DNA of 64,000 nucleotides from Candidatus Nitrospira nitrosa (GTDB lineage Bacteria > Nitrospirota > Nitrospiria > Nitrospirales > Nitrospiraceae): positions 434,001 to 498,000 of the forward strand of contig NZ_CZQA01000001.1 in assembly GCF_001458735.1 (NCBI RefSeq), read 5' to 3'. Under the pieces are notes generated by a model that was not told the origin of the DNA, did not search any database, and saw nothing but the letters and a program-made list of their open reading frames with translations. Both the position numbers and the translations under genes were made by a program. Within the stretch, counting starts at the first letter, position 1. Each line of letters opens with the position of its first letter. Below, piece by piece: positions 2,022 to 33,800 of the stretch.

Positions 2022-3278
2022 TCATAAGTTCAGAACGGGGAATTTTGGCAGCGACGACTCCACAACACCCGTCAGTCGAAGCACAACCTCATACAGCTGC
2101 TGGACCCGCTCAGACTTGATGGGCTCGAAGCCGTGCCCCAGGACAGCGTGATTGGCGGCATCAAGCAACGGCTTCATCTTCGGCCATTCCCTGAGAAAGG
2201 CTTGCCCGAGCTGATCGCCCAAGCCGGCTAAGACACGAAACTGCGCCTGGAGTGGCAACTTGTACTTGCCGTCGATATCTTCGAGGTAGCAGGTCTGACA
2301 GACTTCCTGAAGCGCAGCTGGCAGTTGTGCAGGCAGCGCATCCCAACTCTTGATCTTGTGTGATTTATACAGACGGACTTGAGCACAGACCTCCAGCGCC
2401 CGGACGAGCGCCGTCATAGCTGTTTCAGGATCATGGCGAGCATGCAGTCGTCTCCCGGCAGAGGCCAACAAGTCCAGGATCAGCGACTCCTTGACTTCTG
2501 CCGGATCGAGCACGAGTTTCTCAAGAAAACCGGCATTGGCCTTAATCGGAGGGATGATGGCCTTTAAGCCGGGCGGCCCACCCCAGAGTGACGCCATCTC
2601 CAGAGCTTTGGTGGCGGTCTTCAGTTTCTCCCACGCTTGACGATAGTGAAACCGCTCCCACAAGTCATACCCCTCAGCCAAATCCGCAAATGCCCGATAC
2701 AGCGGCTTCTGCCCACCGCTGACCCGCACCTCCACATCGCGAAAAGTCTTGGCGGCAGCGGGGAAGAGACCGCGGTTGAACAGCTCACATCCGTCACGAC
2801 GTGACACGGCCGCCTGTTCATCCCAGGGATTGCTGTGGGTCCAGATAAAGGACTTCCCGTTCACGTCAACGCGGTCATCCTCCTGCCCCTCTTGAGCTGG
2901 GACCAACGCCACCACACGAGAGGTCCAGGGCACGGCCACCAACGTGAGCGCGGCCGCCATCGCGGGTTTGGCTCCACTCATATCCACAACCAGTTCACCT
3001 GGCTGGATGGCCCAGGTCCGAAACAATTCCGGGAGTGAGGAGGCGAGCGTCTTGAAGGTTGATGAAAACTCCGTCACATCTTCCAGCACGATCCAATCCC
3101 ACCGCTTGGGCATCTGATCGATATTCGGCTGGACGGCTGACTCAACCAGCGACTTGCTGCCTTCCGGCAGGACAAAACACAAGGCCTCAGGTTTGAGCCG
3201 GTTGATCGAATACGCCGCGGCCGCAGCATCATCGACTAATGCCACCACGAGTGCCTTGATGGGTTGATCTTGCGCCAT
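2022..3278 (-). CDS. CARF-domain protein, TIGR02710/Cas02710-like, CRISPR-associated family
   Basis: This 418-residue protein looks like the TIGR02710 (Cas02710) family, an N-terminal Rossmann-like CARF domain joined to a C-terminal helical domain. CARF domains sense cyclic oligoadenylates made by type III CRISPR complexes. Support: the start reads KALVVALVDDAAA; a VDMSGAKPAMAAAL segment near residues 98-111 matches the family's D-x-T/S-G-x-K-x-M ligand-site motif; and a helical stretch near 270-300 has the family's A-x-x-ALVRALEVCAQ pattern. An R-x4-H motif occurs at Arg277-His282, but family members vary there, so ribonuclease activity is not assured. No cas gene or CRISPR array lies in the window. 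The neighbour is a type I restriction island, which fits an orphan or trans-acting defence effector. Family assignment is from memory of the consensus. Confidence 0.72.
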   Translation of the reverse strand: MAQDQPIKALVVALVDDAAAAAYSINRLKPEALCFVLPEGSKSLVESAVQPNIDQMPKRWDWIVLEDVTEFSSTFKTLASSLPELFRTWAIQPGELVVDMSGAKPAMAAALTLVAVPWTSRVVALVPAQEGQEDDRVDVNGKSFIWTHSNPWDEQAAVSRRDGCELFNRGLFPAAAKTFRDVEVRVSGGQKPLYRAFADLAEGYDLWERFHYRQAWEKLKTATKALEMASLWGGPPGLKAIIPPIKANAGFLEKLVLDPAEVKESLILDLLASAGRRLHARHDPETAMTALVRALEVCAQVRLYKSHKIKSWDALPAQLPAALQEVCQTCYLEDIDGKYKLPLQAQFRVLAGLGDQLGQAFLREWPKMKPLLDAANHAVLGHGFEPIKSERVQQLYEVVLRLTGVVESSLPKFPVLNL

Positions 3279-4753: not shown

Positions 4754-7153
4754 ATGGCCATCAAGAAATCCGAACTCTATTCCTCTCTCTGGTCTAGCTG
4801 CGACCTGTTGCGTGGCGGTATGGACGCAAGCCAGTACAAGGACTATGTCCTCGTTCTCCTGTTCATCAAATACATCAGCGATAAGTATGCCGACGTCCCG
4901 TACGCCCCGATCACCATTCCCAAGGGCGCGAGCTTCAAGGACATGGTGGCGCTCAAGGGCAAGCCGGATATCGGCGATCAGATCAACAAGAAGATCATCG
5001 CCCCGCTGGCGAACGGCAACAAGCTCTCCGACATGCCGGACTTCAACGATGCGAACAAGCTCGGCAGTGGCCCTGAAATGGTCAAGCGGCTGACCGACCT
5101 CATCGCCATTTTTGAGGACAAGCGCCTCGACTTCTCAAAAAACCGCGCCGAAGGCGACGACATTCTGGGCGATGCCTATGAATACCTCATGCGGCACTTC
5201 GCGACGGAGAGCGGCAAGAGCAAGGGCCAGTTCTATACGCCCGCTGAAGTGAGCCGAATCATCGCGCAGGTCATCGGCATCCGCGAAGCGAAGACCAGCG
5301 CCTCGAGTACCGTCTACGATCCTACCTGCGGATCAGGCTCGCTACTACTGAAGGTCGCCGATGAGGCCAAGACAAAGCTTACACTCAACGGCCAGGAAAA
5401 GGACGCCACCACAGCCGGCCTCGCACGGATGAACATGATCCTGCACAACAATGCTGAAGCGCTGATTGTCCAGGGCAACACACTGGCTGACCCCAAGTTC
5501 AAGGACAGTGATACCCTCAAGACCTTCGACTACGTCGTGGCCAATCCGCCTTTCAGCGACAAACGGTGGAGCACCGGCCTCGATCCGCTGCACGACCCGT
5601 ACGAGCGCTTCCAGCCCTTCGGCACGCCGCCGGCCAAGCAGGGCGACTACGCCTACCTGCTCCACATCGTCCGCTCGCTGAAGAGCACCGGCAAAGGCGC
5701 CTGCATCCTGCCCCATGGTGTCTTGTTCCGGGGCAATGCCGAGGCCGACATCCGCCGCAATCTGATTCGCAAGGGCTACATCAAGGGCATCATCGGTCTG
5801 CCTGCTAATCTGTTCTATGGCACCGGTATTCCGGCCTGCATCGTGGTCGTGGACAAACAGGACGCCCACACCCGCAAAGGCATCTTCATGATCGACGCCA
5901 GCGCCGGCTTCATGAAAGACGGTCCGAAGAACCGCCTCCGCGCACAGGATATTCATCAGATCGTGGATGTCTTCAACAAGCGCCTCGACATGCCGAAGTA
6001 CTCCCGCATGGTGAGTGTGGACGAGATCGAGAAGAACGAGTTCAACCTCAATCTGCCTCGCTACATCGACAGCCAGCAGACGGAAGACCTGCAAGACATC
6101 GAAAGCCACCTGAAAGGCGGCATTCCACAAGCGGATGTGGAGGCACTTCAGCGCTACTGGGATGTGTGTCCCAAGCTCCGGCAGACCCTCTTCAAGGCCA
6201 ACCGGTCCGGCTACCTCGACCTAGCCGTGGAGAAGTCGGCGATCAAGACCACGATCTACGAGCATCCTGAATTCGCCGCCTTCATCGGCAGGATGAACGC
6301 CCACTTTGCGACGTGGAAGGACAAGACCGCCCAGTCACTCCGGCAGTTGAAGGCCGGATTCCATCCGAAGGAACTCATCGGCAAGCTATCCGAAGACCTG
6401 CTCGCCCACTACGTCGGTCAGCCGCTCATCGATAGGTACGATGTCTATCAGCACCTCATGGACTACTGGGCCGGGACCATGCAGGACGACTGCTACCTCA
6501 TCACCGCAGACGGCTGGAAGGCCGAGACCACTCGCATCATTGAGAAGGACAAGAAGGGCAAGAAGAAAGATAAGGGCTGGACCTGCGACCTTGTGCCTAA
6601 GTCGCTCATCGTCGCTCGCTACTTTGCCAAGGAGCAGGAGGCTATCGATCAGCTCACGGCGGAGTTGGAGGGTGTCAGCGCTCGCCTCACGGAATTAGAG
6701 GAAGAGCACGGAGGCGAAGAAGGGGCGTTCTCCGAACTCGACAAGGTGAACAAGGCGGAGGTCACCAAACGCCTGAAGGAAATCAAAGGCGATAAGGACG
6801 CCAAGGACGAAGCAGCCGTGCTGAACGAATGGCTGAAACTCAGCGACGAAGAGGCCGATTTCAAGAAGCGCCTCAAGGAGGCCGAGGCATCGCTCGACGC
6901 CAAGGCCTACGCCAAGTATCCGACGCTCACGGAGACTGAGATCAAGACCCTGGTGGTGGACGACAAGTGGCTCGCGGCGCTCGACAGAGATATCCACAGC
7001 GAGATGGACCGTGTGAGCCAGCAGCTCACCCAGCGCGTGAAAGAACTGGCCGAATGCTACGAGACCCCAATGCCTCAGATGGTCAACCGCGTGGCCGATC
7101 TGGAAGCCAAGGTGAACCGCCACCTGAAGAAGATGGGGTTCTCGTGGAAGTAA
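4754..7153 (+). CDS. hsdM: Type I restriction-modification system, DNA methyltransferase subunit HsdM
   Basis: This is the N6-adenine methyltransferase subunit of a type I system. It methylates the site chosen by HsdS and is part of both the modification and the restriction complexes. An HsdM N-terminal helical domain is followed by the SAM-binding motif DPTCGSGSLL (about residues 189-198) and the catalytic NPPF (about 263-266). At 799 residues it is much longer than EcoKI HsdM. The extra C-terminal part (about 600-799) is a long Glu/Lys-rich coiled-coil region, as in a known long subfamily. The stop overlaps the hsdS start by ten bases, so the two are translationally coupled. Confidence 0.95.
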   Translation: MAIKKSELYSSLWSSCDLLRGGMDASQYKDYVLVLLFIKYISDKYADVPYAPITIPKGASFKDMVALKGKPDIGDQINKKIIAPLANGNKLSDMPDFNDANKLGSGPEMVKRLTDLIAIFEDKRLDFSKNRAEGDDILGDAYEYLMRHFATESGKSKGQFYTPAEVSRIIAQVIGIREAKTSASSTVYDPTCGSGSLLLKVADEAKTKLTLNGQEKDATTAGLARMNMILHNNAEALIVQGNTLADPKFKDSDTLKTFDYVVANPPFSDKRWSTGLDPLHDPYERFQPFGTPPAKQGDYAYLLHIVRSLKSTGKGACILPHGVLFRGNAEADIRRNLIRKGYIKGIIGLPANLFYGTGIPACIVVVDKQDAHTRKGIFMIDASAGFMKDGPKNRLRAQDIHQIVDVFNKRLDMPKYSRMVSVDEIEKNEFNLNLPRYIDSQQTEDLQDIESHLKGGIPQADVEALQRYWDVCPKLRQTLFKANRSGYLDLAVEKSAIKTTIYEHPEFAAFIGRMNAHFATWKDKTAQSLRQLKAGFHPKELIGKLSEDLLAHYVGQPLIDRYDVYQHLMDYWAGTMQDDCYLITADGWKAETTRIIEKDKKGKKKDKGWTCDLVPKSLIVARYFAKEQEAIDQLTAELEGVSARLTELEEEHGGEEGAFSELDKVNKAEVTKRLKEIKGDKDAKDEAAVLNEWLKLSDEEADFKKRLKEAEASLDAKAYAKYPTLTETEIKTLVVDDKWLAALDRDIHSEMDRVSQQLTQRVKELAECYETPMPQMVNRVADLEAKVNRHLKKMGFSWK

Positions 7154-8370
7154 GATCCGGCTACAAGCAGACCGAGCTAGGGGTAATCCCGGAGGATTGG
7201 ACTATTTCGTCGGTGGGTGCCGAGTTTTCTATTCAGCTTGGCAAGATGCTCGATGCAGAAAAGAACGTTGGCGTGCCAAAGCCGTTCTTGGGTAATCGGG
7301 CTGTTCAGTGGGGGAAAATTGACCTAACTGATATCGGTGAGATCAAGCTGACTCCTTCTGACCTCCAACGCTTCCGTCTCCGAAAGGGCGATCTACTTGT
7401 GTGCGAAGGAGGAGAGATTGGTCGGGCGACGGTTTGGCAGCAGCCTATCGAGGAGTGCTACTATCAGAAGGCATTGCATCGGTTGCGGCCACTTCGCGGT
7501 TACAACGTGCAACTGATGTTGAACATACTTCAACGGTTGGCCTCAACTGGTTTCTTGCTGAACTTTGTCACGCAAACTAGCATCGCTCATCTGCCAAAGG
7601 ACAAGTTTGAAACTATCCCAATCCCCCTCCCACCCACCAAAGCCGAACAAGAAGCTATTGCCGAGGCGCTGAGCGATGCGGATGTCCTCATCGAATCGCT
7701 GGAGCAACTCCTCACCAAAAAGCGCCAGCTCAAACAAGGCGCCATGCAGGAACTCCTCACCGGCAAGAAGCGTCTGCCAGGATTCAGCGGGAAGTGGGAG
7801 GCTTACACCATAGAACAACTTGAAAAAGCCAAGTTGGTGAAACTTTCAAGAGGAAAGGTTATCTCGAAAAATGATATTGAGCGAGTGCCAGGTGATTACC
7901 CCATCTATTCTTCGTCGGTGAATAACAACGGGTTATTTGGCTGCTACGGCGAGTTCATGTTTAATGAAGAATTGATTACTTGGTCTGTCGATGGTGGAGG
8001 AAATTTCTTTTATCGTCCCAGACACAAGTTTTCAGTAACCAATGTTTGTGGTTTCATGCGCGTGGACCCCGTGAAGCTTAATAGCCAGTTTCTCGCCGCA
8101 CAGCTGCAACTATTGCATAGCCGAAAGAGCTTCGATTATCTCATTAAGGCTCATCCCAGCGTTATCCGGAAGGCCTATCAGGTTCGTCTCCCAGGTTTGG
8201 GCGAACAAGCCGTGATCGCCGCCATCCTCTCCGACATGGACGCCGAGATTGTCGCGCTGAAAGCCAAGCTCGCCAAAGCCCGCCAAAGCCCGCCAGCTCA
8301 AGCAGGGCATGATGCAGGAGTTATTAACCGGACGTATCCGGCTAATAAATTGAGAATGGATAATGAATAA
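7144..8370 (+). CDS. hsdS: Type I restriction-modification system, specificity subunit HsdS
   Basis: This subunit recognises DNA for the type I complex. It has two target-recognition domains: the first begins GVIPEDW, the second GFSGKWE. Each is followed by a spacer helix; the first ends with a KQGAMQELLTGKKRL-type motif near residue 210. The GTG at 7144, overlapping the hsdM stop, is the best start because homology begins just after it. The C-terminus is abnormal. A 10-bp tandem duplication (8271-8290) shifts the frame, so the expected second KQGMMQELLTGRIRL motif is missing and about 27 unrelated residues follow. With one copy removed, that motif reappears and the frame ends at 8351-8353. 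The target-recognition domains are A/T-richer than hsdM, as is usual for exchanged domains. Confidence 0.9.
   Translation: MEVRSGYKQTELGVIPEDWTISSVGAEFSIQLGKMLDAEKNVGVPKPFLGNRAVQWGKIDLTDIGEIKLTPSDLQRFRLRKGDLLVCEGGEIGRATVWQQPIEECYYQKALHRLRPLRGYNVQLMLNILQRLASTGFLLNFVTQTSIAHLPKDKFETIPIPLPPTKAEQEAIAEALSDADVLIESLEQLLTKKRQLKQGAMQELLTGKKRLPGFSGKWEAYTIEQLEKAKLVKLSRGKVISKNDIERVPGDYPIYSSSVNNNGLFGCYGEFMFNEELITWSVDGGGNFFYRPRHKFSVTNVCGFMRVDPVKLNSQFLAAQLQLLHSRKSFDYLIKAHPSVIRKAYQVRLPGLGEQAVIAAILSDMDAEIVALKAKLAKARQSPPAQAGHDAGVINRTYPANKLRMDNE
8271..8290 (+). repeat. 10-bp perfect tandem duplication inside hsdS
   Basis: CGCCAAAGCC occurs twice back to back (8271-8280 and 8281-8290), followed by CGCCAGCTCA. 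Ten is not a multiple of three, so the second copy shifts the reading frame of the hsdS C-terminus. The upstream sequence GCTCGCCAAAGCC is itself repetitive, which favours slippage. Confidence 0.9.
8347..8366. repeat. A/T-rich repeat flanking the four-helix-bundle gene, left copy
   Basis: The sequence AATTGAGAATGGATAATGA lies just upstream of the small gene at 8377. Related sequence returns in inverted orientation just after that gene (8757-8782), and a direct degenerate copy lies near 8729-8744. Such repeats suggest the small gene came in as a module. Confidence 0.4.
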
Positions 8371-8376
8371 TCGAGA

Positions 8377-8733
8377 ATGAAAGAGAATGTCGTCAAAGCG
8401 AAATCGTTTGCGTTCGCGCTCCGAGTGGTGACGTTGACGAAACACTTGCAAGGCGAGAAAAAGGAGTATGTCTTATCAAAGCAAGTATTACGCAGCGGCA
8501 CAGCCATTGGCGCGTTGGTGCGCGAAGCGGAACATGCGGAAAGTAAAGCCGACTTCACGCACAAAATGAATATTGCGCTCAAGGAAGCCAACGAAACCCT
8601 TTACTGGCTGGAGTTGCTCTATCAGTCCGAATACATCGCTGCGCAGGGCTTTGAGTCCATCCGAATGGATAGCGAAGAACTCGTCAAACTTCTGGTCTCG
8701 ATAGTAAAAACATCCAGAACAGTTAAGAATTGA
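8377..8733 (+). CDS. Four-helix-bundle protein (S23/IVS family)
   Basis: This 118-residue protein belongs to the four-helix-bundle family first noted in intervening sequences of 23S rRNA genes, and is related in fold to Avd, the accessory protein of diversity-generating retroelements. Its hallmarks are SKQVLRSGTAIGALVREAEHA and DFTHKMNIALKEANETLYWL. These proteins form positively charged pentamers that can bind nucleic acid; their cellular role is unsettled. It is inserted between hsdS and the AlbA-type gene and bordered by A/T-rich repeats, a common arrangement for the family in type I operons. The ATG at 8377 has an imperfect upstream GAGAA. Confidence 0.85.
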   Translation: MKENVVKAKSFAFALRVVTLTKHLQGEKKEYVLSKQVLRSGTAIGALVREAEHAESKADFTHKMNIALKEANETLYWLELLYQSEYIAAQGFESIRMDSEELVKLLVSIVKTSRTVKN

Positions 8734-8756
8734 AAATGAATGACGAGCATTTTCAT

Positions 8757-8782
8757 CTCTCCATTATCAATTCTCCATTAAT
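8757..8782. repeat. A/T-rich repeat flanking the four-helix-bundle gene, right copy (inverted)
   Basis: TCTCCATTATCAATTCTCC is, on the opposite strand, close to the AATTGAGAATGGATAATG of the left copy at 8347-8366. The two copies enclose the four-helix-bundle gene like the arms of a small module. Confidence 0.4.
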
Positions 8783-10123
8783 GTGCCTCGCATGAAAGAG
8801 ACCCAGCACATCGAATGGAAGGAGTCCTGGCGGGACGAATACCTGAAATGGATTTCGGGTTTCGCCAACGCCGAGGGCGGGGTGCTCGTCATCGGCAAGA
8901 ACGACCTCGGCAAGGTTTCGGGCGTTGCTGATGCAAAGAAATTGTTGGTTGATCTGCCCAACAAGGTACGCGACATCCTTGGCATCATGGTGGATGTGAA
9001 CCTGCGTGGGAAGGCCCCGCGAGAATATCTTGAGATCGTGGTGCCGCCCTATCCGAACGCGATCAGTTACCGAGGCGAATATTTTTATCGCAGCGGCAGC
9101 ACCAATCAGATGCTCAAGGGTGCGGGGCTGGAGCGATTGCTGCTGCGCAAGCACGGCCGCACCTGGGACGGGGTGCCGCTTCCCGGCGTCGCACTGAAAG
9201 ACCTCGATAAGAAGGCGCTCGCGTTCTTCCGCGCGCAGGCGGCGCGAAGCGGGCGCCTGTCCGCAACGATTATCAAGGAGCCGGATGGTGTGCTGCTGGA
9301 CAAGCTGCACCTGCGAGAAGGCACGTATTTGACGCGCGCCGCCGTCATGCTGTTTCACCCTTTGCCCGAGCGGTTTTTCGGTGGCGCCTACGTGAAGATC
9401 GGGTTCTTCGAGAGCAATACCGATCTGCGCTATCAGGACGTTATCAGCGGTGACCTATTTTCCCAGGTGAATCATGCGGTCGAACTGATTCGGCTCAAAT
9501 ACATGAAGGCGCTGATTTCCTACGAGGGATTACAGCGCATCGAGACCTATCCGGTACCCGAGGCCGCGCTGCGCGAGGCGATACTCAATGCCCTGGTTCA
9601 CAAGGATTACGCCAGCGCGATCCCGGTCCAAGTCAGCGTGTACGCCGATAAATTGATGATCTGGAACCCTGGCCAATTACCGGCGTCCTGGACTCTTGCG
9701 CGCCTGCTCGGCAAGCATTCGTCGGAGCCTTTCAATCCGAATGTTGCCAATGCGTTCTTCCGCGCCGGGATGATCGAGGCCTGGGGCCGTGGCATCGAGC
9801 GAATCTTGGAGGCCTGCAGCATTGCCCGCACGCCGGCGCCGGAGTTCCGCGCGGAGGCCGCCGGACTGTGGGCCGTGTTTCCCTATGCCGAAGGGGCTCA
9901 GCGGACTACCCAAGAAACTACCCAAGAAACTACCCAAGAAACGACGAGGGACAAGATCTTGGCGGCGCTACACGGCGACCCTACATTAACTCGCAATGCG
10001 CTCGCCGAACGCTTCGGCCTGAGCACGGACGGCGTGAAATACCACTTGGGCAAATTAAGGGCCGAGGGGCGCATCAGGCACGTGGGTCCAACCAAAGCTG
10101 GAAGATGGGAGGTGCTGAAGTGA
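8783..10123 (+). CDS. ATP-binding AlbA_2/Schlafen-type protein with C-terminal winged helix
   Basis: A putative regulator of 446 residues. Residues about 1-120 are an AlbA_2 (Schlafen AAA-4-like) domain: the ETQHIEWKESW start, then FANAEGGVLVIG, then YFYRSGSTNQML. Residues about 250-370 are the partner ATP-binding domain (EAILNALVHKDY, WNPGQLP, EAWGRGIERI). A linker of TTQE repeats follows, and the C-terminus is a winged helix (LAERFGLSTDGVKYHLGKL). GTG 8783 or ATG 8792 could be the start; there is no clear Shine-Dalgarno sequence. Genes of this type are frequent passengers in type I restriction operons, where a regulatory or anti-phage role is suspected but not settled. Its stop overlaps the next frame by four bases. 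Confidence 0.85.
   Translation: MPRMKETQHIEWKESWRDEYLKWISGFANAEGGVLVIGKNDLGKVSGVADAKKLLVDLPNKVRDILGIMVDVNLRGKAPREYLEIVVPPYPNAISYRGEYFYRSGSTNQMLKGAGLERLLLRKHGRTWDGVPLPGVALKDLDKKALAFFRAQAARSGRLSATIIKEPDGVLLDKLHLREGTYLTRAAVMLFHPLPERFFGGAYVKIGFFESNTDLRYQDVISGDLFSQVNHAVELIRLKYMKALISYEGLQRIETYPVPEAALREAILNALVHKDYASAIPVQVSVYADKLMIWNPGQLPASWTLARLLGKHSSEPFNPNVANAFFRAGMIEAWGRGIERILEACSIARTPAPEFRAEAAGLWAVFPYAEGAQRTTQETTQETTQETTRDKILAALHGDPTLTRNALAERFGLSTDGVKYHLGKLRAEGRIRHVGPTKAGRWEVLK
9905..9940 (+). repeat. Three 12-bp tandem repeats in the AlbA-type gene
   Basis: ACTACCCAAGAA is repeated three times exactly and encodes a Thr-Thr-Gln-Glu linker between the ATP-binding and winged-helix domains. A 12-bp unit keeps the frame, so copy number can vary harmlessly. 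Confidence 0.85.
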
Positions 10124-10365
10124 GTGCCTTCGGGACGGTTGGCGAGCCTGAACGCGCCACGCAGAACCGCGTCATCGCGCTGTTCCGGGAGGAATTGGGC
10201 TACCGTTACCTGGGCGACTGGACCGGCCAAAACCGGTTGGGTGAAAAGTTGGATGAAAGGTTGGATGAAACCCGTGCTGCTATTGTTCAGACCCATGCAT
10301 GTTTTCACGAAAACATGCTCATTTTCCTGAAAAATATCTCCCACTATAGACATGCAACCAATTGA
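10120..10365 (+). pseudogene. Truncated hsdR 5' copy fused to an AlbA-type linker
   Basis: From the GTG at 10120 (four-base overlap with the AlbA-type stop) the frame encodes a start nearly the same as the real HsdR 424 bases downstream: ERATQNRVIALFREELGYRY against QATQNRVIALFRDELGYRY. Similarity runs through LGDWT and then ends. The frame continues with LGEKLDERLDE, which resembles the repeat linkers of AlbA_2/Fic-type regulators, and a tail of no known family, and stops after 81 residues. All of the nuclease and helicase parts are missing. It looks like a recombination scar from another type I operon. The copies differ at many silent sites, so it is not a fresh duplication. Confidence 0.7.
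10236..10271 (+). repeat. Three imperfect 12-bp tandem repeats
   Basis: GTTGGGTGAAAA, GTTGGATGAAAG and GTTGGATGAAAC follow each other and encode the Gly/Asp-Glu-Lys/Arg-Leu linker of the hsdR fragment. Linkers of this style are typical of the C-terminal part of AlbA_2-type regulators. Confidence 0.75.
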
Positions 10366-10543
10366 ACAAATGTACTTTTCATGGTGTATGGCCGTGGTGA
10401 GGGGTTGGGCATTCACCAAAGTTGATTTCATGGCTGAGTTCTGCGAGGTCGACATCCATCAATTGCTACTTAAACCATCCCGAAATTCGACGACATCATG
10501 ACTACTCTGACAACGCTGCAGGACGAGATCAACCGGTGAACGC

Positions 10544-13500
10544 ATGACTCACATCGGTCAACCTGAGCAAGCCACGCAGAATCGCGTCATTGCTCTGTTC
10601 CGCGACGAGCTAGGCTACCGCTATCTCGGTGACTGGACCGACCGTGAGGGCAACAGCAACATTGAAGAAAGGCTGTTCACCGACTCCCTCACTAAGAGCG
10701 GCTATACCTCAGCCCAGATCAGCCGGGCACTGTATCTACTGAAGACCGAGGCAGACAATCACAGCCGCAATCTCTACGGAAACAATCAGGCTGTCTACAA
10801 GCTTCTCCGCTACGGGGTGCCGGTCAAGATCGAGGCAGGCAAGGTCACGGAGACCGTTCATCTCATCAATTGGCATGAGCCGGAGAAGAACGACTTCGCG
10901 ATAGCCGAAGAAATCACGCTCAAGGGAACCCACGAGCGGCGGCCCGATCTCGTGATGTATGTCAACGGCATTGCGGTCGGCGTGATCGAACTCAAGAACA
11001 GCCGCGTGTCCATTGGCGACGGTATCCGCCAAAGCCTTTCCAATCAACAGCCTGAGTTCAACGCCTGGTTCTTCAGCACCATGCAATTCATCTTCGCCGG
11101 GAACGACTCGGAAGGTCTGCAATACGGGACCATCGGCACGCAGGAGAAGTATTTCCTGAAGTGGAAAGAGGACGAGCAGGACAACTCCCGCTTCAAGCTG
11201 GACAAGTATCTGCTCAAGCTGTGTGCGAAGGACCGGCTGATCGAGCTAATCCATGACTTCGTGCTCTTCGACGGCGGAATCAAAAAGCTGCCACGGGTGC
11301 ACCAGTATTTTGGCATCAAGGCCGCGCAGAACGCTGTACGCCAACGCAAGGGCGGCATCATCTGGCATACGCAAGGAAGCGGCAAGAGCATCGTCATGGT
11401 GCTGCTGGCCAAGTGGATTCTGGAGAACTCCCCCCATGCCCGCGTGGCCATCGTCACCGACCGCGACGAACTGGACAAGCAGATCGAACGGGTCTTTACC
11501 GATGTCGGCGAGCCGATCACACGCACCAGCAGCGGTCGCGACTTGATGAGCCAGCTTGGCCGTGCGACACCTCGTCTCATGTGCTCACTCGTCCACAAGT
11601 TCGGCCGCAAGGACGTGGATGATTTCGACGCCTTTATCAAAGACCTGGAGGCCCAGCCCAGCCGGACCGTGGGCGAGGTGTTCGTGTTCGTGGACGAGTG
11701 CCACCGCACGCAGAGCGGCAAGCTGCATCGGGTGATGAAGGCACTCATGCCGAATGCCGTCTTCATCGGCTTCACCGGGACGCCGCTGCTCGCCAAGGAT
11801 CGGGCTACCAGCCACGAAGTATTCGGCCGATACATCCACACCTACAAGTTCAGCGAGGGTGTAGAGGACGGGGTGGTGCTCGATTTGGTCTATGAGGCGC
11901 GGGATATCGATCAGCACCTGGGTTCTCAAGAGAAGATCGACGCCTGGTTCGAGGCCAAGACCAAGGGGCTGAATGATTGGCAGAAGGATGAACTCAAGAA
12001 AAAGTGGGGGACGATGCAGCAGGTGCTCAGCTCCAAGTCCCGCATGGATCGGGTGGTGAGTGATGTCGTCTTCGATTTCGGGGTGAAGCCGCGCTTATCC
12101 AGTGAACGGGGGAACGCTATCCTCGTGGCCTCAAGCATCTATGAAGCCTGCAAGTATTTCACGCTCTTTCAGAAAACCCCCTTCAAGGGCAGGTGCGCGG
12201 TGGTGACCTCCTACAATCCCCATGCTCAGGACGTGACCAAGGAAGAAGTCGGCGCGAACACGGAAACCGACAAGCAGTTCATCTTCAACATCTATACCGA
12301 GCTACTGAAAGATATTGACGCGAAGCCGGGTATGACCAAAACCGAAACGTACGAGGAGTGGGCCAAAGCCCTCTTCGTCAAGGAACCGGCGAACATGAAA
12401 TTACTGGTGGTCGTGGACAAGCTGCTCACCGGATTCGACGCGCCTCCTTGCACCTATCTCTACATCGATAAATCGATGCAGGACCATGGATTGTTCCAAG
12501 CAATCTGCCGCACCAATCGTCTTGACGGTGAGGACAAAGACTACGGCTACATCGTGGACTACAAGGATCTATTCAAGAAACTGGTCAACGAGAAGGGCAC
12601 TGGGGCTCTACAAGTCTATAGCTCCGAGCTAGATCACAGTGCCGGGGGAGCTGCCCCTGAGATTCTGCTGCAAGACCGGCTGAAGAAAGGCAAGGAGCGG
12701 CTCGACCAAGCGTTGGAGACTCTGGATCTCCTGTGCGAACCGGTGGCTCCTCCGAAAGGGGAGCTGGAGCATATCCATTATTTCTGTGGGAACACGGAGA
12801 TTCCGGCTGACCTCCAAGAACGGGAACCGCAACGGGCCGCACTCTATAAGGCAACCGTCGCCCTAGTGCGCGCCTACGCGAACATCGCTGATGAACTCGA
12901 TCTTGCCGGCTACAGTGCAGCCGACATCAGCCGTATCAAGCAGCAGATGGATCAGTATCTGAATGTCCGCGAGATTGTACGAAAGGCTAGCGGGGAGAGT
13001 CTCGACCTCAAGGCCTACGAAGCCGATATGCGCCATCTCATCGATACCTATATCGAGGCGGATGAGCCGAGAAAGATTTCCCCCTTCGATGAGATGCCTT
13101 TGCTTGACCTGATCGTGAAGACCGGAATCGGAAATGCCATCGCCACGCAGCTCGGCGGCCTGAGAGGCAACAAGGATGCGATTGCCGAGACCATCGAGAA
13201 CAACGTGCGTCGCAAAATCATCAAGGAGCATCTGAACGATCCCGCCTACTACGAGACCATGTCGGCGTTGCTGGACGAGATCATTGCTGCGCGCAAGGCG
13301 AAGGCTATCGAGTATGAGCAGTATCTGAAACGCATTGCCGACCTCGCCAAACAAGTGGAGGCCGGGCAGGCAGAGGATACGCCGGAGCCGCTCAAGAAGA
13401 GCCCGGCTCTACGGGCGCTCTATAACAACCTCAAGGCTACCCACGGAAGACATCCGGATGCCGATCGCGCTGCGGAAACGCAGACCGAATACAGGATTGC

Positions 13501-13684
13501 CGGTGATCCGACATTGAAACTGGCGTTGAAGATCGACGAGGCTGTGAAAAAGGTGCGTCACGATGGCTGGCGCGGAGTTCAGACACGCGAGCAAGTGATC
13601 AAGCAGGCGCTGTATGACCTGCTGCGGGATGAGACTGAGGTGGAGCGCATCTTTCTCATCGTCAAAGCGCAGAGAGAATACTGA
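10544..13684 (+). CDS. hsdR: Type I restriction-modification system, endonuclease/translocase subunit HsdR
   Basis: This is the motor and nuclease subunit of the type I complex; it translocates unmethylated DNA and cuts it. The N-terminal PD-(D/E)xK nuclease has RRPDLVMYVNG near residue 133 and IELKN near 148. The SF2 motor follows: Walker A QGSGKS (about 276-281), FVDECHR (about 382), GFTGTP, and QAICRTNRLDGEDKDYGYIVD in motif VI. The C-terminal helical region is of the kind that docks HsdR on HsdM. The length of 1046 residues is normal. The start at 10544 matches family N-termini. The stop overlaps the next start by one base (TGATG). Confidence 0.95.
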   Translation: MTHIGQPEQATQNRVIALFRDELGYRYLGDWTDREGNSNIEERLFTDSLTKSGYTSAQISRALYLLKTEADNHSRNLYGNNQAVYKLLRYGVPVKIEAGKVTETVHLINWHEPEKNDFAIAEEITLKGTHERRPDLVMYVNGIAVGVIELKNSRVSIGDGIRQSLSNQQPEFNAWFFSTMQFIFAGNDSEGLQYGTIGTQEKYFLKWKEDEQDNSRFKLDKYLLKLCAKDRLIELIHDFVLFDGGIKKLPRVHQYFGIKAAQNAVRQRKGGIIWHTQGSGKSIVMVLLAKWILENSPHARVAIVTDRDELDKQIERVFTDVGEPITRTSSGRDLMSQLGRATPRLMCSLVHKFGRKDVDDFDAFIKDLEAQPSRTVGEVFVFVDECHRTQSGKLHRVMKALMPNAVFIGFTGTPLLAKDRATSHEVFGRYIHTYKFSEGVEDGVVLDLVYEARDIDQHLGSQEKIDAWFEAKTKGLNDWQKDELKKKWGTMQQVLSSKSRMDRVVSDVVFDFGVKPRLSSERGNAILVASSIYEACKYFTLFQKTPFKGRCAVVTSYNPHAQDVTKEEVGANTETDKQFIFNIYTELLKDIDAKPGMTKTETYEEWAKALFVKEPANMKLLVVVDKLLTGFDAPPCTYLYIDKSMQDHGLFQAICRTNRLDGEDKDYGYIVDYKDLFKKLVNEKGTGALQVYSSELDHSAGGAAPEILLQDRLKKGKERLDQALETLDLLCEPVAPPKGELEHIHYFCGNTEIPADLQEREPQRAALYKATVALVRAYANIADELDLAGYSAADISRIKQQMDQYLNVREIVRKASGESLDLKAYEADMRHLIDTYIEADEPRKISPFDEMPLLDLIVKTGIGNAIATQLGGLRGNKDAIAETIENNVRRKIIKEHLNDPAYYETMSALLDEIIAARKAKAIEYEQYLKRIADLAKQVEAGQAEDTPEPLKKSPALRALYNNLKATHGRHPDADRAAETQTEYRIAGDPTLKLALKIDEAVKKVRHDGWRGVQTREQVIKQALYDLLRDETEVERIFLIVKAQREY

Positions 13685-27881: not shown

Positions 27882-30800
27882 TTAGAGGAGGAAATCCCCG
27901 GCGGCGACGCTGCCGACCCCAGTCAGCTGGATTTCAAGATCAGCCACACCATTGCCGTCGGTGTCGCCTTGCAGCGTTGCGGTCGCCGCATGAAAGCGCA
28001 ATTGACCCGCGACTGAGGTAAACGCCCCCGTGTTGATAAACGTGAAGGCGTTGTCGCTCCCACCCAGCACGGCATCGATGCCGGCTAGATCGATCTTGTC
28101 GCTGCCGCTGACAAAGTCGGTGATGACGTCCTTGTTCGCACCAGCGGGGCTTTCAGTGATCAGATTGAAGTCAACGATGTCGTTCCCCGCTCCGCCCGTC
28201 AAAGTATCCTTCCCGGCCCCGCCGGTGAGAATGTTCGCGGCACTGTTGCCCGCCAACACATTGTCCAGCGTATTCCCCGTCCCATTGATGGCCGTCGTCC
28301 CGGTCAAGGTGAGGGTTTCGAGATTCGCACCCAGGGTCCAGGTCACCGCACTCTGCACGGTATCCGTTCCGGCACTCGCCGCTTCCGTCACCGTATCACC
28401 CGTCCCGACGACATAGGTGTCGTTCCCCGTCCCACCAGTCAGCACATTCACCGCACTGTTCCCGGTGAGCACATTGTTCAGGGTATTCCCCGTCCCGTTA
28501 ATCGCCGTCGTCCCGGTCAACGTGAGCTGCTCGAAGTTGGCCCCCAACGTTCGAGTCACGGCGCTGAGCACGGTGTCGGTTCCTTCATTGGCATTCTCCG
28601 TCGTGACATCGCCCGTCGCATTGACGACGTAGGTGTCATCCCCGGCCCCACCCACCATCGTATCGTTCCCGGCCCCGCCGTCGAGCGTGTCGTTGCCGGC
28701 GGCGCCGGTCAGCGTATTCACGGCACCATTGCCGATCAGCATATTGTTCAGGGTATTCCCCGTCCCATTGATGGCCGTGGTGCCGGTCAACGTGAGCTGC
28801 TCGAAATTCGCCCCCAACGTTCGAGTCACGGCGCTGAGCACGGTATCGGTTCCTTCATTGGCATTCTCCGTCGTGACATCGCCCGTCGCATTGACGACGT
28901 AGGTGTCGTCTCCCGCACCGCCTACCATCGTATCGTTCCCTGTGCCGCCGTCGAGCACATTGTTTCCCACGTTGCCGGTCAGACTATTGTTCAGCGTGTT
29001 GCCCGTCCCATTGATGGCCGTGGTGCCGGTCAAGGTGAGGTTCTCCAGATTGGCGCCCAGAGTCCAGGTCACGACACTCTGCACAGTATCAGTCCCTGCA
29101 CTCGAGGCTTCGGTCACCGTATCGCCGGTCCCCACGACATAGGTATCGTTCCCGCTTCCACCGGTCAGGATGTTCGCCGCACTATTGCCGGTCAGGATGT
29201 TTGCCAAGGAGTTGCCGGTACCATTGATGGCCGTCGTGCCGGTCAGCGTGAGATGCTCGACGTTCGCACCGAGTGTATAGGTAACGGAGCTTTGGACCGT
29301 ATCAGTGCCTTGATTCGTTTGCTCGGTCACCACATCGCCGGCGTTGTCCGCCAGATAGAGATCGTTGCCCGTTCCCCCGGCCATACTGTCAGCCCCACTG
29401 CCGCCATCAAGCGTATCGTTCCCCCCGCCGCCACTGAGCGTGTCGTCGCCGCCTAGACCAGAGAGCGTATCGTTGGTTGCGGCACCGGTGAGGAAATCAG
29501 AATCGTCGGTACCGACGAGTGTCACTCCTTCTGTCCGGCTTGCAATGGCGGCGGCATCCCAGATCGTCCCGTCCGCAAACTTGATCTGCTCAACCTGATA
29601 GAGCGGCCCAACGAAGTAGCTTTCGATCGTCAGCTGATCGGTGGTGCCGTTGATCGTCAAGAGAAGACTGTTCTCGATCGTCGCTTGGAGTCGGACATCC
29701 GCCGGTGCCACCGTGTTATCGAGAAGCACCGTGTCCACGCCCCCGTCAGGCCCCGGGTCCGGAAAATCATTCACCCGATCCTGCCCACCTCCCCGGCCGA
29801 AGAGATAGATGTCGTTCCCATCGCTACCGATGAGGCTATCGTTGCCGGCCCCGCCGTCCAGTCGATCGTTTCCGGTGAAGCCGGTCAACGTATCGTTTCC
29901 ATCCAGCCCGAACATGTCGTTGTCATTGCCGAACCCGCTGAGGACGTCGTTCCCATTCGTGCCCATGATCAGCTGTACGCGACTCGCAATCTCGGTCTCC
30001 CCCCAGATTGTCCCGTCGGCAAAGTGAATCTCGCCGACCGTGGGTGTCCGAAGACCTGGCTCGATCAGATAGTTCTCGACGGTGATTTGATCAGACGTGC
30101 CCACGATCTTGAGGACCAAATGGTTGCCCTGCCCCTCGAACGTCACATCTGTCGGGGTCACTCCGGCAAGGAATTGGATGTAGTCAATAAAATTCGGCGT
30201 GTCATAGAACTGCGTTCCGGTCTGGATCACATCCTGTCCATAGCCATGTCCGAACACATAGCTATTGTCTCCCTGTCCGATCAACGTATCGTTGCCTTGC
30301 TTCCCATCCAGCAAGTCCGACCCGGTCATCTGGTTGTTCAGCGTGTTCCCGACGAGATCAACGGTGGCACTGGGGAAAAACGTATCTTCGCGCAATTCGA
30401 TATTCTCCACTTCGTCGGGCAACACAAACAACCCGGGTATCGCCACGCTGACCGTATCAAATCCTCCACCAGCGGACTCGACGATTACATGGCCTGACCC
30501 ATAGAGCTCATACAGATCATTCCCCGCTCCGCCCACTAAACGATCGGTTCCCAGGTCGGCCCTCACCTGGTCATCACCGGCTCCTCCATAGAGCACATCA
30601 TTGCCCTCATCTCCTCTCAGCTGATCATTCCCGTCGCCACCGTCCAACGTGTCGTCGCCGGCGCCGCCTTGCAATTGGTCAAGCCCGGCTTCCCCTAGAA
30701 GCGTATCCGCCTCGCCCAGTCCGGAGACCGTGTCATCGCCGGCACCTGCCGCAATCCGATCAGTGAACTCCGTGCCGACGAGCGACTCGCCGGCGCTGGT

Positions 30801-33800
30801 TCCGACCTGCTGGAAACCACGCGCGCTCAGCAACTGACTGTAGGTGAGCACCGTTCCATCGGCAAATTGAAAACTGTCGATCGGGTGCGGATCGGCTGGA
30901 ACCGATGCGTTGAAGTTGCTGATCTGCACCGTATCACCGACCGTCCCTACGCGAAGGAGCAACGTACTACCCACTTGCTCCAGCGCCACCGATCCTGCAT
31001 CGACCCCGAAAACCAGCCGATTGCCTTCTCCCGCTGTGTCCTCAATCGTATCGACGCCGTCGCCGACGTTGAACACATAGGTGTCCTGCCCAGATCCTCC
31101 GATGAGTAGATCTTGACCGGTCCCGCCAACGAGTGTGTCGTTTCCGGAATCACCATCGAGCTCGTCGTCGCCCGCGCCACCGTTGAGCTGGTCGTTTCCC
31201 CCATTGGTTGGATTCGTCTCGAGCGCCATCCGATCGCCGCGCAGCGCGTCGTTCCCCTCTCCCCCGACGAGCGTATCGTTCCCGAGACCACCCTGCAGCT
31301 CGTCATCGCCTTCCCCGCCGTCGAGCAGGTCATCGCCGATCAGCGTCACGCGCAGAGGATCATCCCCAAAGAGCGCATCATTGCCGGCCCCACCGAAGAG
31401 CTGATCGGCGCCTTCGTCCCCTTTCATCTGATCGATCCCGTCGCCGCCGCTCAAGAGATCCGTACCGGCACCGCCCTGCAGGACATCGTCTCCCTCTTCG
31501 CCGAAGAGCGAATCGTTTCCTGCAATCTGTGGATCGAGGTTCGTATCGCCCAGGATCACATCATTTCCAATTCCACCGAACAACTGATCATCCCCGCCAT
31601 CACCGAGCAATTGGTCGTTGCCGTCCCCGCCGTTGAGCACATCGTTGGCGCCGACACCAACAATGGGTCCGTCGCTGTCGCCATAGAGCAGATCATCGCC
31701 GGCGTCGCCGAACAGCGTATCCTCCCCGGCATGCCCGAACAGCGTGTCGATGTCCGCGCCGCCGTTGAGCACATCCTTTCCTTGCCCACCGGCCAGCGTA
31801 TCGTTCCCGGCGCCGCCATCCAACAGATCGTCGCCCCCCACCGGATCATTCACAAAATCCCCGAATAGCGTATCCGCTCCGTCCCCGCCGATCAGCCGAT
31901 CTCCCCCACCACCGCCATACAGCCGATCGCTGCCAGCCCCGCCGTCCAGCAGGTCGTTACCAGGTGTCACCCCATTCAGTGTCTCATCGTCGCCGTAGAG
32001 CCGATCGTCCTCAGTGCCACCAAGCAACACATCGTCGCCGCCGTCACCTCGGAGGTAGTCGATGCCGGCCCCGCCGTCGAGGATGTCTGCCGCGCCCGTC
32101 ACGCTGACAAAGGCCGTCTGTGCCACATTCACAAAAGCGCCCTGCCCATCGGCGACTTGCGCAATCCACCCGTCCGGTCGATTCTCTCCCCACAGCTGAT
32201 CATCCCCCGCCCCACCGTTGAGGACATCGACTCCAAGCGCCCCCATCAAGATATCGTTGCCCGCCCCGCCGTCGGCATAGTGCTCGCCCGACTCGATCGT
32301 ATACTGGGTGAAATTGACGACGCGCGTGCTCCCGGCCATGATGTCCGCATCGTCTCCGCCCTGAAATACATCGCCGTCGCCGACATAGGCGAAATCGTTC
32401 CCGGCGCCGCCGATGAGATAGTCCTGGCTGTTTCCCCCAACCAACGAGTCGTTGCCCGCCCCCCCGTCGAGCACATCGCCAAACTGATCGTTGAGGCTGA
32501 TGCTGCTATCCAAGATATTGTTCAGAGCATTGCCATAGACAGCCCCAGGGCCGCTGAGATTCTCCGGGAGCGAGCCATTGATATCGGTTGGCCCCAGGGT
32601 CACAGTGAGGTCAAACGGGCCGGTGGGCACGCCCGTATCTTGTGGAGCACTGGTGGCATCGATCAACTTGATCCCGAACTGGCCGCTCTGAAAGTTCTCG
32701 TTAATCGTCAGGGTGTTCCCATTCAGCGTCAGCTTGAGATGGCCACCTTCAAGCCGATACTCAAATTGCCCATCTGGACTCTTCCAGGTCGTATCGCCAG
32801 CCTTCTTAATCCCGCCAACCAGTAAGTGTCCATCCACCTTGATCATGCCGGTGGCATCCGAATCTTCGATCGTATCGTTGCCGTCGGTGAGACTGGTAAA
32901 GTAGTACGTATCGTTCCCCTCGCCACCTTCTAAGCGATCGTCCCCGGCCCCACCCGTCAAGGTGTCGCTATTCTCCCCGCCTCGCAGCACATCCGCACCA
33001 TCTCCACCCTCCAACACATCGAACCCCGCCTCGCCAAGCAAGAGATCCGCCTCAGAATCACCCAGTAACGTGTCGCTCCCGGTGCCACCGTAGAGCACAT
33101 CGGTCCCACTCCCGCCCTCAAGTTGATCCATCCCGCCTTCGCCGAAGAGGAGATCTCCCTTGCTCGTCCCTTTCAGGGTTTCAAACAGAGCCAACGCCGG
33201 AGCCGCATCCTTTCCCACCAGCACCTCACCATCGATCGTGCGGCCTTCGGCATAGTTACCGACAAGACGAGTTTTTGCATTACCGCTTTCATATGCAAAG
33301 GTATCTGTGGCAGAAGGGGCGGTATGTATATCACTCTCATAGGTCTGAATGGTGTCCCGATGTGCTGCGTACATGCGAAAGATTGACTTGGCTTCCGCAT
33401 CGTTCAGCGCTGCGTTCTCGTACAGGCTGAACTTGTCGGACTCCGCATAGCGACGATTGGCAATGCCTTCCGCCAAATTCGGATCGGTGATGCGCTCACG
33501 GTTGGATTGATATCGAATCTCATACCAAGCCTCGGCTCGATCGCCGGTTTGCAACGCATGGACCAAGTTGGGGCCGATGAGGCTGGGAGCATTAAACATC
33601 AGCGACAGCAACGCCACCATTTCTTGTGACCCGGCTAGGGCGCCGAACGTCGGCTGCCCGATTTTAGTGATCAGCGCTGCCGTGGCGTCATCGACGAGCA
33701 AATTGAACAACGGCTGAAACTGCGTTTCCGTAATCGTGCCGAAACTGAACGGGGTATTGGTCGGATCAGGACTTCCCGCATTCCAATGGGCGATGGTGGG

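Follow-up and report, generated by a model that had tools for sequence, protein, structure and literature searches.

The hsdS gene of the type I restriction-modification system EcoR124I carries TAEL repeats in its spacer, where, as in EcoDXXI, their number changes the protein, and a study of tandem-repeat number in a Mycoplasma pneumoniae S subunit reportedly exists as well. The available text of a review describes how, in EcoDXXI with its third TAEL repeat, the number of repeats within the spacer helix changes the protein (PMC3874165). In the excerpted accounts of NgoAV from Neisseria gonorrhoeae, a frameshift at a repeat in hsdS1/hsdS2 yields a shortened S product; the repeat is a poly-G tract after the first half, known to vary, and the product is a one-domain protein of 208 aa. 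A survey of simple sequence repeats (SSRs), so far as its accessible portion goes, reports them in 7.9% of hsdS genes and describes phasevarion hsdS and hsdM genes that shift frame by gaining a repeat unit (PMC7394358). In solved S subunits the conserved helices are packed together as an antiparallel coiled coil, with proposed HsdM sites at the CR/TRD junctions, according to the available parts of two sources (PMC3047542, PMC3874165).

Here we analyse hsdS in a window of 64,000 nt (the whole stretch of DNA examined) from Candidatus Nitrospira nitrosa. The locus resembles other type I systems (Methylase_S; solved structures 1yf2, 3okg and 1ydx) in its operon order hsdM-hsdS-(accessory)-hsdR and in the two recognition domains and spacer helices of HsdS, and its intact relatives end in LLTGRIRL, as 1yf2 ends in LLTGKVRV. 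Unlike the solved and intact proteins, the window HsdS has its second spacer helix cut at residue 381, the conserved end being lost by a frameshift at a 10-bp tandem duplication. Unlike the NgoAV repeat, this unit lies near the end of the gene and was seen at one length, and both recognition domains are kept in frame in a protein of 408 aa that does not end after the first of them. It differs from the TAEL units of EcoR124I and EcoDXXI, which are in frame and alter spacing, in being out of frame and destroying the end, and from SSR phasevarions in lacking a multi-copy tract and, again, in showing a single length. Our search of the literature treating Nitrospira, hsdS and type I restriction together found no account of hsdS in Nitrospira, and in the hsdS literature surveyed we recognised no comparable 10-bp duplication. 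We consider it probable that a recent slippage frameshift, private among the genomes examined, has damaged HsdS and probably disabled the type I system.

Organization of the type I locus

The genes follow one another in the order hsdM, hsdS, a four-helix-bundle gene, an AlbA/Schlafen-type gene (8783-10123) and hsdR. HsdM (799 aa; 4754-7153, forward strand) is full length, scoring 269.5 bits against TIGR00497 (cut-off 242.75) and matching the PADLOC profile PDLC03027 over positions 1-810 of 810. HsdR (1046 aa; 10544-13684, forward strand) is likewise full length, with 505.9 bits against TIGR00348 (cut-off 284.55) and a match to positions 1-1030 of 1034 in PDLC03044. The locus combines full-length HsdM and HsdR with an HsdS that has two recognition domains. 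As encoded, hsdS occupies 7144-8370 on the forward strand (PF01420, E 3.7e-25) and starts at a GTG overlapping the end of hsdM. This start was picked in the light of related sequences; the open frame begins further upstream. Pfam's Methylase_S matches the protein in two stretches, above Pfam's cut-off. The NCBIfam model PRK09737 gives 75.6 bits for the window protein and 87.1 for the intact HsdS of its closest relative, both far below the cut-off of 662. The four-helix-bundle gene (8377-8733, forward strand; 23S rRNA intervening-sequence protein family) has its ATG 6 bases past the new hsdS stop.

The closest relative at the locus is a Nitrospira MAG of the same genus as the window (contig CABVSA010000104.1, contig 104 of genome G076; hereafter L024). 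Against L024, dN/dS is 0.109 for hsdM and 0.095 for hsdR, values indicative of purifying selection that reflect the whole divergence from L024 and not the time since the mutation. Across hsdM, hsdR, the SLFN/AlbA gene and a neighbouring CARF gene the ratio is 0.07-0.11 and lengths are comparably full; general decay of the locus was rejected on these grounds. Therefore, among the genes compared, only hsdS is visibly broken. Over 117 codons, the four-helix-bundle gene and its L024 counterpart differ silently at 8 and by amino acid replacement at 10.

The CARF protein (TIGR02710/CARF-HEPN type; 2022-3278, reverse strand) adjoins the type I locus here and in L024, with 383 of 418 residues identical. 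The interval between hsdS and hsdR (8377-10540 in the window) is an accessory-gene slot across the window, L024 and the loci of genomes G017 (L063) and G050 (L064). It holds the four-helix-bundle and AlbA/Schlafen-type genes in the window and L024, a 669-aa stop-to-stop ORF matching the PADLOC Orf5/SspE/HEC-06 profiles in G050, and a short gap without a comparable gene in G017. About 90 bp at 10138-10228 resemble the 5′ start of hsdR (80-85% to the hsdR starts of L024, G017 and G050), the genuine hsdR lying some 400 bp further on; L024 has its own upstream copy at its positions 8592-8681. The partial copy looks like a scar of the accessory-gene insertion.

DNA identity to L024, computed in 200-base bins, is 0.39-0.45 across both recognition domains (7201-8200), with similar flanks, and 0.82 in the central-spacer bin. 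From 8400 to 10000 it is 0.97-0.995, except for 0.82 in 8601-8800, and across the hsdR bins it ranges from 0.845 to 0.99. The AlbA/Schlafen gene is far less diverged at synonymous sites (dS 0.081) than hsdM (0.650) and hsdR (0.402). These binned identities and unequal dS values suggest that the locus is a mosaic built by recombination, in which the recognition domains were exchanged.

A 10-bp tandem duplication shifts the frame of hsdS

Direct reading of the forward strand shows an exact tandem pair of CGCCAAAGCC, with copies at 8271-8280 and 8281-8290, followed by CGCCA at 8291-8295; the exact period-10 stretch is 25 bp in all (8271-8295). A previous reading of the letters alone (the sequence-only reading) had noted a unit doubled at 8271-8290, just as we see it. 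Tandem Repeats Finder reports the whole tract (8266-8295, forward strand) as 3.0 copies of period 10 with 95% match, a count that arises because an imperfect copy, AAGCTCGCCA, stands before the exact pair.

Under a criterion of unit length 4-40 and a matching run of at least 13 bases and at least one unit, the 64 kb contain two exact tandem duplications. Of these, the hsdS repeat alone shifts a frame; the other is a 12-bp repeat at 9905-9942, in frame. None of 60 dinucleotide shuffles contained any exact tandem duplication under the same criterion. The hsdS duplication is beyond chance.

Several further repeats occur in the window. The in-frame 12-bp repeat of the AlbA/Schlafen-type gene (TTQE, 3.2 copies) lies just before its winged-helix end, and its QRTTQETTQETTQETTRD stretch is also present in L024. 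A 270-bp tandem repeat spans 28438-28956 (1.9 copies, 89%), and period-27 arrays are found at 28633-28715, 29161-29219, 31692-31745 and 31883-31963.

Ten extra bases do not divide evenly into codons, and HsdS runs out of frame after Q381. The encoded C-terminus reads KLAKARQ-SPPAQAGHDAGVINRTYPANKLRMDNE, the last 27 residues (beginning S-P-P) being foreign; on the forward strand this tail occupies 8287-8370, including the stop at 8368-8370. The conserved end survives as an out-of-frame remnant at 8291-8353 (forward strand), where the frame from 8291 spells RQLKQGMMQELLTGRIRLIN followed by a stop at 8351-8353, and 20 of 20 residues agree with those of L024, the syntenic Nitrospira locus. The earlier proposals that the duplication causes the odd C-terminus and that one copy fewer would restore the standard end, with its stop at 8351-8353, thus agree with the remnant and with relatives, which lack the duplication and keep the frame. 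The sequence-only reading quoted that end as ...GRIRL, correct as far as it goes; in the closest relative the intact end is ...GRIRLIN, two residues longer.

The remnant differs from L024 at two bases; neither changes a residue in the lost frame, whereas each does so in the present one. These differences, together with the identical copies of the unit, are consistent with a young mutation. Dating the lesion from the remnant was rejected, two differences being too few. Programmed +1 frameshifting back into the old frame was also considered: by-eye reading of the junction codons revealed no familiar shift motif, which weakly argues against it.

Relatives carry a single copy of the unit

L024 aligns with the window over 8203-8716 at 92% identity and has a single copy of the 10-bp unit. 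Among 79 genomes of the genus, eight match the queried stretch: the window's own, G015, G017, G046, G050, G076, G036 and G051. Matches in the last two are confined to the four-helix-bundle gene. The hsdS end is matched in G015, G017, G046, G050 and G076, every time 10 bases shorter than the query. Full-length HsdM orthologues (88-91% identity) are encoded by G017, G050 and G076, whose hsdS genes are without the duplication and have the normal end; a fourth HsdM orthologue, in G034 (94% over residues 1-382), is truncated by the contig boundary.

We extended the comparison by a motif search for the tail, which reads any frame (it recovered the window's own remnant) and covers HsdS families with this ending. 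The conserved tail stands in frame at the end of 23 of 42 distinct HsdS-like ORFs. The 19 ORFs lacking the motif are the window's own, that of L019, genes that are partial or lie at contig edges, and ORFs from other S families or frames. With L019 (broken elsewhere), L031 (starting at a contig end) and L059 added to the 23, 26 other hsdS tails are available at the loci examined, and none has the duplication: the unit occurs twice in the window and once in each of these tails, in a sample of one genome per species with one derived state. Exact runs at offset 10 reach 15 bases in the window and at most 6 in the others. CGCCA already occurs twice, 10 bp apart, in the single-copy L019, L024 and L029. 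The near-repeat of the relatives is a product of their KLAKAR codons; most tails that encode other residues at this place show it less strongly, L011 with its 6-base offset-10 run being an exception.

The hsdS of L019 (1-1700, a Thiodictyon MAG) is broken twice, by an in-frame stop beyond the central spacer and by a frameshift ahead of the second one; damaged S genes thus occur elsewhere among these hsdS relatives.

Absence from all 26 comparison tails is also what an assembly or consensus error in a truly single-copy genome would produce. We regard such an error as very unlikely. The errors typical of long reads fall in homopolymers and are unlike an exact 10-bp duplication, and a duplication this short fits within any read. 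Moreover, the CARF gene, hsdM, the four-helix-bundle gene, the SLFN/AlbA gene and hsdR are all comparably full length relative to L024, and the 1.80-Mb contig belongs to a 15-contig assembly scored as 99.99% complete.

The sequence-only reading further suggested that the site switches back and forth, the copy number of the tract flipping in the population to turn the type I system on and off. The tract is repetitive and has evidently been extended once, an exact offset-10 match of 15 bp makes it easier for a unit to be lost, and SSR-driven hsdS variation is known from the poly-G tract of NgoAV and from the available text of the survey (PMC7394358). Against a contingency switch, the tract consists of two exact copies and one imperfect one rather than a multi-copy simple sequence repeat, none of the 26 other tails has two copies, and the near-repeat in relatives is explained by the KLAKAR codons. 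A search of the whole genome with HsdS (E ≤ 0.001) returned one match, although an unrelated S family could be missed in this way; no second hsdS copy of the kind found at inverting or multi-hsdS loci was detected, and inverted repeats in 7100-8800 measure 10-21 nt. Having sought a multi-copy tract, a second hsdS and variant relatives and found none, we rejected a phase switch; the proposed switching lacks support, and we hold it highly unlikely. The lesion has the appearance of a single mutation, an ordinary frameshift of a familiar type.

Loss of the conserved end of the second spacer helix

Conservation was assessed in an alignment (A4) of L024 and 16 other proteins, 17 of the 22 HsdS references, without the window protein. 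L015-L018 were left out of A3 and A4 because their domains align at shifted positions in A1, and L021, a partial match, was left out of all alignments. In A4, K399, M402, M403, L406, L407, G409, R412 and L413 (L024 numbering) are invariant.

AlphaFold2 models of HsdS were each built from an alignment of 17-18 rows. The L024 model has two 40-residue spacer helices (167-206 and 368-407), with block mean pLDDT of 92-95 over residues 361-410 and 79 for the last five. In the window model the first spacer helix is complete (residues 166-205, encoded by 7639-7758 on the forward strand), while the second stops at residue 381 and its conserved end is absent. After a two-residue break a further helix (384-396) is modelled in the foreign tail at pLDDT mostly below 50, and residues 385-408 stay below 50; in part this low confidence is unavoidable, the foreign tail having no homologue to be aligned with. 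Compared with the solved S subunit 1yf2 (M. jannaschii), the window model reaches Z 22.1 with rmsd 4.8 over 352 residues (model residues 3-394) and the L024 model Z 31.3 with rmsd 2.9 over 396 residues (1-415). The lower Z does not come from the tail alone, because parts of 249-299 are also weakly modelled.

Profile matches agree with this. In the window protein the match to PADLOC PDLC03101 runs to residue 381, position 390 of the 411 in the profile, versus 405 in L024, L036 and L002, and that to PDLC03178 runs to residue 380, position 399 of 411, versus 409-410 in those three, among the best 25 of the 86-126 families matched by these HsdS proteins. The comparison with L024, the models and the 26 tails all bear out the previous suggestion that the second spacer helix has lost its conserved end.

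Possible residual activity of the altered subunit

The altered HsdS might nevertheless be active, either because the stub of the second helix suffices or because the intact first helices bring two S chains together, in the manner of truncated type IC subunits, keeping the site or forming a symmetric one from the first recognition domain. The first spacer helix and first recognition domain of the window protein are intact, and by model and sequence comparison the first helix is similar to the part missing from the second, with 29 of 44 residues identical between the window first helix and the L024 second helix. Such similarity may explain the interchangeable helices of type IC, as the available text of a review suggests (PMC3874165). 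S subunits also tolerate drastic change: in the accessible parts of the sources, S proteins of half length, having a single recognition domain, are still able to methylate (PMC3874165, PMC6158711), among them a staphylococcal half-S (PMC6158711), and TTE-HsdS has a loop and bend inside its own CR2 helix (PMC3047542). The known active truncations, however, miss most or all of the second domain, whereas the window HsdS retains it with a damaged helix and a foreign tail. Furthermore, the conserved end is retained in 17 of 17 A4 sequences, eight of its residues being invariant, and in the available text of the review S homodimers are reported for type IC only (PMC3874165). We therefore consider retained activity unlikely. 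That the frameshift has remodelled the enzyme, pairing of two HsdS chains by their first helices giving a methyltransferase with a new symmetric site, seems to us highly improbable. If true, slippage in KLAKAR codons would offer this Nitrospira lineage a way of changing specificity without a swap of recognition domains.

Probable origin and consequences of the lesion

In type I systems HsdR cannot locate its site without the M2S core. Returning to the damaging frameshift that we favour, its precursor would have been a single-copy hsdS end with CGCCA twice, 10 bp apart, in the imperfect 10-bp repeat produced by KLAKAR codons. Replication slippage on the CGCCA microhomology probably added one exact 10-bp unit; the copies and the single-copy relatives are observed, the slippage step is what we infer from them. 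One such step in an AAAGCC precursor, as found in L019 and L029, would yield the window's repeat. The duplication lies near the edge of the block recently shared with L024, and it was possibly born of misaligned recombination rather than slippage.

With the extra unit the frame is lost after Q381, and 27 unrelated residues take the place of the LLTGRIRL tail and of the last part of the second helix. Judging from the models and the literature, the missing part would normally close the circular subunit; it is the distal end of the partner helix of the first spacer helix. By S-subunit architecture it would also belong to the junction with the first recognition domain, a proposed HsdM contact site. 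An M2S complex built on the altered subunit would most likely be unstable or fail to assemble, with methyltransferase and restriction activities off or badly impaired. Joint loss of methylation and restriction would be survivable because HsdR depends on the M2S core. Silencing of the type I system by the frameshift is thus predicted as likely, and reversion by loss of one repeat unit is possible.

The window HsdS keeps its normal length and strong PADLOC matches to specificity subunits (among the best 25 families). With the Pfam domain retained as well, counts of 'complete' type I systems would include a very likely damaged S subunit, and the locus is a caution that a cryptic hsdS lesion can pass for a complete system. 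Should the repeat be shown to vary within a culture, this would be a Nitrospira lineage with a repeat-driven methylation switch. As it stands, the gene offers a natural test of the need for the end of the second spacer helix in M2S assembly.
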